Source: Acholeplasmatales bacterium
GTDB lineage: Bacteria; Bacillota_I; Bacilli_A; Acholeplasmatales; Anaeroplasmataceae
Direction of reading: 5' to 3'
Assembly (NCBI GenBank): GCA_024697825.1
Contig: JAILEP010000048.1
Location: 1 to 48,913 of the forward strand
Length of the DNA stretch: 48,913 nucleotides
Positions 43,810-48,216 of this stretch are shown here, piece after piece. The first letter of the stretch is position 1; every line of letters starts with the position of its first letter. Position numbers and translations under genes: made by a program. The notes under the pieces are model-generated. The model did no database searches and was not told the DNA's origin. It saw only the letters and a program-made list of their open reading frames with translations.

Positions 43810-45072
43810 TTAAATGTATTCAATTGGAAGTGCATAAAGATTATCTCTTAATTTTAATTTATAATCTCCTCTGCAAATGATTGCACCAATTCCTCTCTTT
43901 TTGCTTAAATCTTTGTCTAAAACATCAAATGCGGATGCCATTTCTGATTTTGGATTGGTTGTTTTTTTGATTTCAATTGGATACAAAACACCATTTTCTT
44001 CAATAATCAAATCAATTTCACTATCTTCAAATGTATCTATACCTTTTTGTGTCTTCGTCACTTTATCTTTACCACGATAATAGAATATTCTCTTTTTGTA
44101 ATCTTTTCCTTGATTAATATATGATTTAATTATTTCATTAATTACAAATGTCTCAAAGAATGCACCATTCATTGCACCATTTTCAAGTGTTTCTGGTGTT
44201 AACCAAGAAGTTAAATAAGCAGCTAAACCAGTATCCCTAAAATATACTTTAGGCGTCTTAATTGCTCTACTCAAATGAGAATTATAATAAGGCTCTAAAA
44301 GATAAATAATATCTGTTTTTTCTAGAACTGAAATCCAATTTCTAATTGTTTCAAGTGATACGCCTACATCTTTTGAAATACTACTATAATCAAGCATATT
44401 CCCTGTTCTTGCAGCTACAGATACCATAAACCTATAAAATAAATTATTATCCCTTATTTTCGTAATATCATAAACATCTCTTTCAATATAAGTCTTTACA
44501 TATGAAGAATAGTATTCTTCCCAGTCTCTTGGATTATCTTCATATAATTCAGGGTATCCACCTCTATGAATTACCTTCCATAGATTTTTATACTTCTTAA
44601 TACATTTTTCACGTTCTTTAAAATAGTCTAAGGTTGGAATAAAAGGTGTATTAAAAGAAATGTTATTTATTTCTCTTAGAGATAATGTTCCTAACTCTAA
44701 AATAGAAACCATTCCAGCTAAGGATTCAGATAAACCTTTCATTAATTCCCATTTTTGTGATCCTGAAAATAAATAATTACTTCTAGTAGAAACTTCATCA
44801 AGTATTGTCTTTGTTGCACCAATCAATTCAGGAACCATTTGAACTTCATCTATAAAAAGAGGTCTTTCAAAATTTTCTAAAAATCCTTGAGGATCTTCTT
44901 TTGCATTATTTAAAAGAACTAAATTCTTTAGATTTATTCTCCTTATATTAGGAAACATATGCGTTGTCATGGTTGTTTTACCAACTTGTCTGGCTCCAGT
45001 AATTGCTACAGACTTAGAAGTATCAAATCTATTTTTTAGGATATCTTCAATCGCTCTATTGATGTATGTCAT
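43810..45072 (-). CDS. AAA-family ATPase with DUF4143
   Basis: About 420 residues. Walker A is GARQVGKTT (about 24-32) and Walker B PLFIDEVQ; the sensor region SGSQKWEL follows. The C-terminal DUF4143 part has EIDLII...YPIEIKKT, a pattern like PD-(D/E)xK folds. Such proteins are common and patchily spread, and their role is unknown. The ATG at 45072 (or 45075) is set by GGAGG at 45080-45084. The frame opens further upstream, but that part lies before the predicted transcript start. Confidence 0.9.
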   Translation of the reverse strand: MTYINRAIEDILKNRFDTSKSVAITGARQVGKTTMTTHMFPNIRRINLKNLVLLNNAKEDPQGFLENFERPLFIDEVQMVPELIGATKTILDEVSTRSNYLFSGSQKWELMKGLSESLAGMVSILELGTLSLREINNISFNTPFIPTLDYFKEREKCIKKYKNLWKVIHRGGYPELYEDNPRDWEEYYSSYVKTYIERDVYDITKIRDNNLFYRFMVSVAARTGNMLDYSSISKDVGVSLETIRNWISVLEKTDIIYLLEPYYNSHLSRAIKTPKVYFRDTGLAAYLTSWLTPETLENGAMNGAFFETFVINEIIKSYINQGKDYKKRIFYYRGKDKVTKTQKGIDTFEDSEIDLIIEENGVLYPIEIKKTTNPKSEMASAFDVLDKDLSKKRGIGAIICRGDYKLKLRDNLYALPIEYI

Positions 45073-45106
45073 CATACCACCTCCGACTATTCTCAATTTC
45101 AATTTG

Positions 45107-45135
45107 ATTATAGCCAAAAGTACTTCTCTTGTCAA
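45107..45135 (-). promoter_or_regulatory. Promoter of the AAA/DUF4143 gene
   Basis: A perfect consensus on the minus strand: TTGACA (45130-45135), 17-base spacer, TATAAT (45107-45112). Confidence 0.88.
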
Positions 45136-45322: not shown

Positions 45323-45396
45323 ATCGAGCATGATGCCTTAACTCCTAAGGGAAAGGCCCCCAGTTAGAGTCTGGGTAAGTGCGCCAGATAAGCAAT

Positions 45397-45430
45397 AAAA
45401 TCATCCCGTAATAAGGATGATTTTTTTTAT
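45397..45430 (-). terminator. Terminator of the AbiE-phosphorylase operon, bidirectional
   Basis: AATCATCC pairs with GGATGATT, loop CGTAATAA; eight T follow on the plus strand and four on the minus strand. It may also end an unknown plus-strand transcript. Confidence 0.75.
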
Positions 45431-45438
45431 ATCTATTA

Positions 45439-46218
45439 CTAATTATTATTCATTATTTTCATTCCAAGTTCAAACGCTAAAAACATAATTTTAATTTTAT
45501 CATCAAGTCTCGCACCACCAGCTAAGCTTCTTGGGTCCCAATTAGAATGATCTAAATTATCACCTGCATAAAAGAATTGAAAAAATTCGGTTCCTCTAAA
45601 ATCGCATAGAGCTTGCATAGCGGAACATTCCATTTCAACACATATTGCACCTTGTTCCTTTCTTTTTGCTACTTTATCTTTAGTTTCTCTATATGGTGCA
45701 TCTATTGTCCATGTTCTACCTTCAACATAAGGATACCCATATTCTTTTAAAACTTCTTTGAATTCTTCTTTATATTTTTTATTAACCTCAATTGTATCTT
45801 TTGGTTTAGCATAATGATAACTTGTGCCTTCATCTCTTAAAGCACTTGTAGGTATAATAATACCACAATCTTCAATAGATTTATCAAGAACTCCACAATT
45901 ACCAAGTAATATGAGTTTTTTACTTCCCATAACCATTATATCTTCATATTGATTAACACAAAGAGATGCCCCAACCATAGAATGAAATAACGCAAATCTT
46001 TTACCTTTATATTCAACTTCATAGATATAATTTAATCCTACTGCCGAATGAACATGACCAATTTCTTTAGCATCAAATGTTTGAAGTACGTTATTGAATA
46101 ATTTTTCAGAGAAACAAGAGATTGTTACCTCAGGAAAATTTTCAATTATTTTAGCGCACATTTCAGGCATAATTATAGCTTCTTTATTTTCATCAAAATC
46201 ATTTAACAACATAATCAT
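45439..46218 (-). CDS. Nucleoside phosphorylase coupled to AbiE
   Basis: 259 residues of the PNP/UDP phosphorylase superfamily, which splits nucleosides with phosphate into base and ribose 1-phosphate. The family motif GAICVEMECSAMQAL (ribose binding, Glu-Met-Glu) is clear, and ILLGNCGVLD matches the phosphate/base loop. The start overlaps the upstream toxin stop as ATGA, so translation is coupled. Substrate unknown: purine or uridine types are both possible. Lying third in a toxin-antitoxin operon is unusual. Confidence 0.88.
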   Translation of the reverse strand: MIMLLNDFDENKEAIIMPEMCAKIIENFPEVTISCFSEKLFNNVLQTFDAKEIGHVHSAVGLNYIYEVEYKGKRFALFHSMVGASLCVNQYEDIMVMGSKKLILLGNCGVLDKSIEDCGIIIPTSALRDEGTSYHYAKPKDTIEVNKKYKEEFKEVLKEYGYPYVEGRTWTIDAPYRETKDKVAKRKEQGAICVEMECSAMQALCDFRGTEFFQFFYAGDNLDHSNWDPRSLAGGARLDDKIKIMFLAFELGMKIMNNN

Positions 46219-47204
46219 ACTACTCCATTAATTTCATTTTCTAATTTTTCTAATACTTTTACTATCTCATCAAAAGATGGATAGTCCTTAAAAAACATTG
46301 GTTCCATCATTTTATAATCATTCTTCAAATCATCAAGATTCTTTGGAATCAACTTAAATGTCCCTGGCCTTGCCTCTTCAAATTTAGCCCATGGTCTATT
46401 GTAGAATGTCATTGTAAAGAGTCTAACATCTTCTAATATGCCCAAATTATTCAATGCGTCACTTTTTACATTAGAATAGTACATTTTAAATAAATCATAA
46501 TAATGTCTTGAATATCTTTGAGGAATTTTACCATTTTCTCTATTAGCTTCTTGATGTAGTATTACTGCTTTTTCCCAAAATGTTCTAACTGGTAAAGTTA
46601 CTCTCACATTGAAACTTACATTATTAAATAGACTAGGATAATATGTAGAAGCATAACTTTTTATAGTTTTTGTCTCATAAGGCGTCCAAGACGCAACTGG
46701 TCCAATCTCAATTTTTACAGCATTTTTTATGTATGCTGTATTATAGCTAGATGGATATTCTACATAGATAGCTAATTCTTCATCACTTAGAGTGATTTTT
46801 AATTGTTTATTAATTTCATTTGATAAATCATTGGTTATTACCTGTAATAATTTGCCTTTATAAAACTCTAGTGCTCTATTATTTAATTCATCTACTAATT
46901 TATTCTTTTGATTATTTGAAATACTAAATAAATCTTTCGAAAAATTAAAATCAATTATTCTGCTATTTAATACAATATCAATATCTTCAGACATTCTATC
47001 TATAAGATTATATGCCTTAGATAATGATGTTCCACCCTTAAATTCAAAAAAATCTTTATATTCACATCTATTGAATAAATAATCTAAAATATAACAAACC
47101 CATAAATCTTTTTCTACTATTGAAGAAGCAAGTCCGCTTTTTCTTGATGTTGCTTCAACAACTTCATTTATTTCATCTATACTTCTATTTAATAATTTAA
47201 TCAT
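46215..47204 (-). CDS. AbiEii-family nucleotidyltransferase toxin
   Basis: 329 residues. FEFKGGTSLSKAY and SEDIDIVL are the GGTSLS and DxD motifs of AbiEii/MenA-type nucleotidyltransferases; EKDLW near residue 32 is also typical. Characterised members (MenT) add nucleotides to tRNA acceptor ends and halt translation, serving in phage defence. The start overlaps the antitoxin gene by 8 bases. Confidence 0.92.
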   Translation of the reverse strand: MIKLLNRSIDEINEVVEATSRKSGLASSIVEKDLWVCYILDYLFNRCEYKDFFEFKGGTSLSKAYNLIDRMSEDIDIVLNSRIIDFNFSKDLFSISNNQKNKLVDELNNRALEFYKGKLLQVITNDLSNEINKQLKITLSDEELAIYVEYPSSYNTAYIKNAVKIEIGPVASWTPYETKTIKSYASTYYPSLFNNVSFNVRVTLPVRTFWEKAVILHQEANRENGKIPQRYSRHYYDLFKMYYSNVKSDALNNLGILEDVRLFTMTFYNRPWAKFEEARPGTFKLIPKNLDDLKNDYKMMEPMFFKDYPSFDEIVKVLEKLENEINGVV

Positions 47205-47805
47205 TATGCTTTAACTCCTTCAATTCTTTAATTAGTTCATATATCCATTTATCAACTGACTTTGCTTGAATTAACGCGTCATCTATTATTTTATTTGATA
47301 CATTATTAGCTAAAATTCTTTTAGATTTATCATCAAAATTATCTTTTCCATAGTAATTTATTGCTTGAATTAAATACTGAACCATTTTATCCATATTAAA
47401 CATTTTCTTTGTAGATGAATGTTTAAAATTAATAATCTTCCCATCAATATTATATTTTTTATATGGACCAGTTGATGAATATGTATATGTTTGTGGCAAT
47501 TGAGTAGATAATCCAAAATAGTTAATCGCAACTTCTCCAGTTGGAACTATATCCCACCCAAATTTTCTTGCTATACATTCTGATAGTTCAAAAACATTAC
47601 ATGGGAGATATTCATTTAATAAAGAAGAGTATTTAGGTTTCATATAAATACCATCAAGTATTTTTATAATTACACCCTTATTAATTAGTCTTTGAATTAT
47701 TTTTTTTATATTTTCATAGTTAGTTAAATCTATAAAATCGTTAAGAATAAAAATAGATCCGTCACTAAGGTTATTAATTCTAAACTCTACTTCTTTAGAT
47801 AACAT
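47197..47805 (-). CDS. AbiEi-type antitoxin/transcription regulator
   Basis: 202 residues. An N-terminal winged-helix region (1-70) contains GSIFILNDFIDLTNYENIKK-like helices and the wing LINKGVIIKILDGIYMKPKY, shown here in part. The remainder matches AbiEi/DUF6088 proteins. Such antitoxins bind inverted repeats at their own promoter, and one is present at 47820-47851. AGGTGG lies before the ATG at 47805. Confidence 0.87.
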   Translation of the reverse strand: MLSKEVEFRINNLSDGSIFILNDFIDLTNYENIKKIIQRLINKGVIIKILDGIYMKPKYSSLLNEYLPCNVFELSECIARKFGWDIVPTGEVAINYFGLSTQLPQTYTYSSTGPYKKYNIDGKIINFKHSSTKKMFNMDKMVQYLIQAINYYGKDNFDDKSKRILANNVSNKIIDDALIQAKSVDKWIYELIKELKELKHND

Positions 47806-47819
47806 GTTATCACCACCTG

Positions 47820-47851
47820 TTGTCCCTTTTATTATATAGTTTTAGGGACAA
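47820..47851. promoter_or_regulatory. Inverted-repeat operator of the AbiE operon
   Basis: TTGTCCCT (47820-47827) and AGGGACAA (47844-47851) flank the -10 box. One arm lies in the promoter spacer, the other at the transcript start, so a bound regulator would block RNA polymerase. Confidence 0.75.
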
Positions 47852-47859
47852 AAAGTAAA
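47831..47859 (-). promoter_or_regulatory. Promoter of the AbiE-phosphorylase operon
   Basis: TTTACT (47854-47859), 17-base spacer, TATAAT (47831-47836). Confidence 0.75.
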
Positions 47860-48035: not shown

Positions 48036-48172
48036 CAAACTCGCCACCAAAATGATATCGAAGAACTACAAAAACTGCACGAAATAGACGTTTTGTACAA
48101 AATAAGGCAACAAACTGAACGATATTTAACAGTATAGATAAACAAAAAGATATTTTTCTTAAATTTTCAAAA

Positions 48173-48216
48173 TCCTAAGCGAAAGGTCGTGCGTTCGAAT
48201 CGCATCGGGAACGCCA
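48173..48216 (+). other. 3' half of tRNA-Arg(CCT): probable att site
   Basis: TCCTAAGC matches the end of a CCT anticodon loop, followed by the T arm GTGCGTTCGAATCGCAT, the acceptor strand CGGGAAC and GCCA. No 5' half (expected to begin GTTCCCG) lies upstream. tRNA-Arg(CCT) is a frequent target of tyrosine integrases that cut in the anticodon loop and leave such a 3' remnant at one element end. Confidence 0.85.

Follow-up and report, generated by a model that had tools for sequence, protein, structure and literature searches.

The window analyzed here, a stretch of 48,913 nucleotides from an Acholeplasmatales bacterium, carries three genes on its minus strand between positions 45439 and 47805. 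An earlier note had read them as an AbiEi-type antitoxin, an AbiEii toxin, and a nucleoside phosphorylase, and the open reading frames and family matches agree with these assignments at the level of family. The first gene (47197..47805) encodes a DUF6088/AbiEi-like protein of 202 residues, the putative antitoxin and autorepressor (PF19570, E 3e-32; PADLOC AbiEi PDLC02226, E 2.3e-49); against the NCBIfam model TAA_AbiEi it scores 18.4 bits, with a cut-off of 150. The second (46215..47204) encodes an AbiEii nucleotidyltransferase toxin of 329 residues with a GGTSLSK...DID motif (PF08843, E 7e-31; PADLOC AbiEii, 2.5e-94), and its PF08843 match spans positions 5-237 of the 238 in the profile. The third (45439..46212) encodes 257 residues, counted from the start conserved in its relatives, and belongs to the NP-I (PNP_UDP_1) superfamily (PF01048, E 1.2e-24).

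Organization and control signals of the operon

The three genes had been described as overlapping, which holds for the antitoxin and toxin genes (8 bp in the window, and also overlapping in G001, a genome of one other species of the genus) but depends on the choice of start codon for the toxin and third genes. Read from its first ATG, the third open reading frame occupies 45439-46218 and overlaps the toxin gene by 4 bp, an overlap that is not conserved; the second ATG (46212) is the start found in relatives and in G001, and it leaves a 2-base gap. A GGAG ribosome-binding site common to the window and G001 precedes the third gene. Since order, 2-base gap, and ribosome-binding site agree between the two species, selection may favor co-expression of the third gene with its neighbors.

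Upstream of the antitoxin gene, a promoter-like site (TTTACT-17-TATAAT; 47831..47859, minus strand) matches the consensus at the expected place and sits across an operator-like inverted repeat, TTGTCCCT-N16-AGGGACAA (47820..47851), which surrounds the -10 element. This repeat is nearly unchanged in G001, though the DNA farther upstream diverges. At the other end, the operon is closed by a terminator hairpin (45397..45424, minus strand, scored on the plus strand too). The proposal of one operator for all three genes fits a single promoter-like site with its inverted repeat upstream, tight packing, and a terminator downstream. Pairwise dN/dS values between the window and its relatives were 0.08 for the antitoxin, 0.12 for the toxin, and 0.11-0.15 for the third gene, indicating purifying selection on all three. 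The locus is a genuine, operon-like association of gene types already known, and two species retain it.

Distribution of the third gene relative to AbiE

To see how often the third gene accompanies AbiE, searches covered 199 relatives together with 395 genomes from the class and 392 from the phylum, and they yielded many DUF6088-AbiEii pairs. Both antitoxin and toxin were recognized at 40 loci, counting those of the window, G001, and G029; at 37 of these the third gene was not found in the inspected flank, which mostly measured about 1.5 kb and in some cases stopped at a contig end. The three-gene order is known from two congeneric species, represented by the window and by G001, where order, spacing, and operator are the same and the contig ends 26 codons into the third gene. 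Of these 26 residues, 20 are identical to the window protein and 24 to the free-standing protein of G022. The coupling that the earlier note had reported is thus real but rare: its check across other genomes returned one further species, with the third gene partial, against 37 loci that have the AbiE pair without it. In one small genome, G619, we observed five copies of this AbiEii type (L180 and L185-L188) with TGA codons within their frames, which would fit a genetic code with TGA as Trp in that genome.

Apart from the AbiE-linked cases, third-gene relatives occur widely and stand free among unrelated genes. Close copies occur in three of 27 genomes of the genus (G000, G001, and G022), which marks the gene as accessory. 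The closest relative of the encoded protein is 83% identical (G022), followed elsewhere by proteins at 82, 72, 65, 61, 54, and 51%, and no AbiE gene adjoins those at 72-83% identity. The neighbors, read by eye from translations, include kinase-like, ASCH-like, GNAT, and tryptophan-synthase-like genes. Viral contigs contained no relative of the toxin or of the third protein, and phage records gave five partial matches to the third protein, none reaching 80% coverage. On plasmids, the inspected third-gene relatives (from Enterococcus and, beside tet(O), from Campylobacter) had no adjoining AbiE, and the inspected AbiE pairs (Anaerococcus, Lysinibacillus) had no third gene. One such relative, 36% identical, lies on the Campylobacter coli plasmid pCCDM183 (L078:4968-5738) near tet(O) and aminoglycoside resistance genes. 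In the available literature, no paper was found that names nucleoside phosphorylase along with AbiE and toxin-antitoxin.

In G029 the gene order is purF, third-gene relative, antitoxin, toxin, purM, and we had considered this locus as independent support for the linkage. It was dropped, because its relatives G042 and G046 have purF, the third-gene relative, and purM without AbiE; the arrangement is most simply explained by insertion of an AbiE pair behind a gene of the purF operon. Adjacency of the third gene and AbiE can therefore arise by insertion. In several genomes of a sister genus (L084 (G029), L012, and L015), purF and purM enclose a third-gene relative, a setting that tentatively suggests a substrate related to purines in that branch of the family.

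Fold and predicted activity of the third protein

The AlphaFold2 model of the third protein (pLDDT 95) has the NP-I fold and consists of a single domain with no extra sensor. Compared by VIA-align with phosphorylases and with AMP nucleosidase 1ybf, it gave Z of about 25-26 and rmsd of 2.2-2.9 over 219-236 residues, and it is about equally near to MTA phosphorylase, DeoD, uridine phosphorylase, and AMP nucleosidase. As a result, the fold cannot tell a phosphorylase from a nucleosidase. Structural alignments put the third protein at 13-20% identity to these NP-I enzymes (DeoD, MTA phosphorylase 1jds, uridine phosphorylase 4lnh, and AMP nucleosidase 1ybf), with which it shares the fold, the V-E-M-E ribose motif, and the acid Asp218. 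Every NCBIfam match was far below its cut-off (deoD, 46.7 bits versus 232), and the protein had no match in PADLOC, a library that perhaps includes no model for a nucleotide-depleting NP-I effector.

DeoD residues G20, R24, R43, and R87 take part in phosphate binding. In a profile alignment of 35 members of the third-protein family, in which N-terminal positions are less certain, the phosphate-binding Gly and Arg residues of DeoD and uridine phosphorylase are not conserved: the Gly position is occupied by an invariant F34, the R43 position (residue 58) is Arg in a single member, and all 35 have a hydrophobic or small residue at the R87 position (residue 102). The ribose-site residues M194 and E195 and the catalytic Asp D218 are invariant in 35/35, and the family alignment also shows an invariant R-x-E-G-x-S-x-H-Y loop (R126, E128, G129, S131, H133, and Y134). 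With the Gly and Arg of the NP-I phosphate site replaced across the family, the third protein is probably a nucleosidase that hydrolyzes a nucleoside or nucleotide. The suggestion that a phosphorylase acts on nucleosides here probably names the wrong activity, as the phosphate-site residues of phosphorylases are missing; nothing was found to tie the protein to the toxin's substrate supply or product, as had also been proposed.

Displaced tRNA halves enclosing the three genes

The three genes are enclosed by two displaced 3' halves of tRNA-Arg(CCU), 45 bases each and 2.8 kb apart, which the earlier note had not reported. Each reads from the anticodon loop via the T arm to CCA. The left half (45342..45386, plus strand) matches, at 45/45 bases, the 3' part of an intact tRNA-Arg(CCT) gene of a sister species, G012. 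The terminator that follows this half has a homologous hairpin behind the intact gene of G012, and it is also the one that closes the operon. The right half (48172..48216, plus strand) is identical, from TCCTAA to CCA, to the intact tRNA-Arg(CCT) of the sister species G011, G022, G026, and G019. The two halves differ from each other in their stems. A pattern describing these halves has no other match in the 1.9-Mb genome, a draft in 142 contigs whose own intact tRNA-Arg(CCT) lies on contig C104.

Since integration at a tRNA gene leaves displaced halves, the trio can be read as the cargo of one cassette with att-like ends. Between the halves lie only the three genes, with no integrase. The plus strand of the window has no intact tRNA gene that could mark a cassette end, no intact tRNA-Arg 5' half precedes the left-hand 3' half, and the G001 contig has no match to the tRNA-half pattern. 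The insertion history is incomplete, given the lack of a left 5' half here and of any tRNA half in the G001 contig, and the missing 5' half makes rearrangement or misassembly possible.

Other genomes carry related arrangements. A tyrosine recombinase gene adjoins the intact tRNA-Arg(CCT) in G012. In G026 (L173:8132-10541), 2.4 kb separate the intact tRNA-Arg(CCT) from a displaced 3' half and contain an AAA_14/DUF4143 gene and no integrase, which by its sequence appears to be a comparable cassette. An AAA_14/DUF4143 gene also lies beside the trio in the window (43810-45135) and is perhaps part of the next cassette in a small array; a 95%-identical copy adjoins tRNA-Asn at L094:1651-2862 (contig C115). 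In G001, too, the contig carrying the trio opens with what looks like the end of an AAA_14/DUF4143-type gene. Judging from sequence, the trio is most simply placed on an integrase-less cassette within a small array, the cassette is likely mobile, and in this genus the tRNA-Arg(CCU) gene appears to be a hot spot for insertions.

Comparison with known systems

Tycheposons are tRNA-targeted, helper-dependent integrative elements. The helper-dependent "hitchers", as presented in the available part of PMC11389934, resemble the window in having cargo between tRNA 3' halves and no internal integrase; unlike them, the window cassette has no intact tRNA adjoining it in the contig, and its mobility is a prediction. 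In type IV toxin-antitoxin systems, toxicity is neutralized with no contact of the two proteins. For AbiE itself, the type IV system of Streptococcus agalactiae is among the nearest known counterparts, its antitoxin repressing the operon and countering AbiEii (PMC3985639). As in the window, its regulator gene overlaps an AbiEii/DUF1814 nucleotidyltransferase gene and an inverted repeat lies at a promoter with -10/-35 spacing of 17; the arms of the repeat are 8 bp and 16 apart in the window versus 11 bp and 27 apart in S. agalactiae (PMC3985639). The window also differs in that its antitoxin is a DUF6088 protein rather than the AbiEi equivalog, and in having a third gene. In Streptococcus suis, an ICE-borne AbiE stabilizes the ICE (PMC11062541). 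The MenT toxins, members of the AbiEii family like the window toxin, transfer nucleotides to tRNA 3' ends, and the available part of that account mentions no third gene of the window's kind in MenAT (PMC10435456). A PDB sequence search with the window toxin gave no match at E up to 1, indicating that it is only distantly related to MenT.

Interpretation of the three-gene cassette

With moderate confidence, we favor the view that the DUF6088-AbiEii pair is an addiction and possibly also phage-defence module of a small, integrase-less cassette targeted to tRNA-Arg(CCU), and that the third gene is its cargo. The AbiEi-like protein would repress the operator and neutralize AbiEii, which in turn would attach nucleotides to an RNA, most likely tRNA. 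The third gene would be co-expressed with the pair under AbiE control, and its product would cut an N-glycosidic bond by hydrolysis rather than phosphorolysis. An integrase acting in trans would have moved the cassette, e.g. one like the tyrosine recombinase that adjoins this tRNA gene in G012, and the AbiE pair would help to retain the element.

Alternatively, the third protein could be a functional partner of AbiE, one that takes the added nucleotide off again, depletes or replenishes the nucleotide used by the toxin, or acts as a second, nucleotide-destroying effector once the operator is relieved. NP-I domains serve as nucleotide-depleting effectors in some phage-defence systems, the third protein has its fold in common with AMP nucleosidase 1ybf, and the co-directional genes with their 2-base gap and single operator in two species, together with purifying selection on the third gene, fit such a role. 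Against it, the gene is missing at 37 other loci with AbiE of this kind, its nearest relatives (72-83%) have no adjoining AbiE, and the protein is a single domain with no added sensor. We consider a role of this kind fairly unlikely; a partnership with the toxin is possible, and nothing in the evidence here requires it. Its most specific form, a tripartite AbiE whose nucleosidase, lacking a phosphate site, is released together with the toxin as a second nucleotide-destroying effector or as the eraser of the tRNA product, seems quite unlikely.

The third gene might instead be an ordinary resident metabolic gene, upstream of which an AbiE pair merely inserted, as G029 illustrates with AbiE behind a relative in the purF operon. 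This is also unlikely, given a close copy in only three of 27 genomes of the genus, an exact junction common to two species, tRNA halves that enclose all three genes, and a degenerate phosphate site. An assembly artefact, in which the trio or its flanks were misjoined, could be suspected from the 142 contigs and from the second, 95%-identical copy of the adjoining AAA/DUF4143 gene. We give it almost no weight, as the junction of antitoxin, toxin, and third gene recurs in the independent genome G001, which confines the doubt to the flanks.

Should the third gene be only cargo, as the cassette reading holds, the locus would still illustrate how metabolic genes can move with toxin-antitoxin pairs on short cassettes that use a tRNA-Arg hot spot. 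Should it be a functioning part of the system, nucleotidyltransferase toxins would be linked to a nucleosidase effector.
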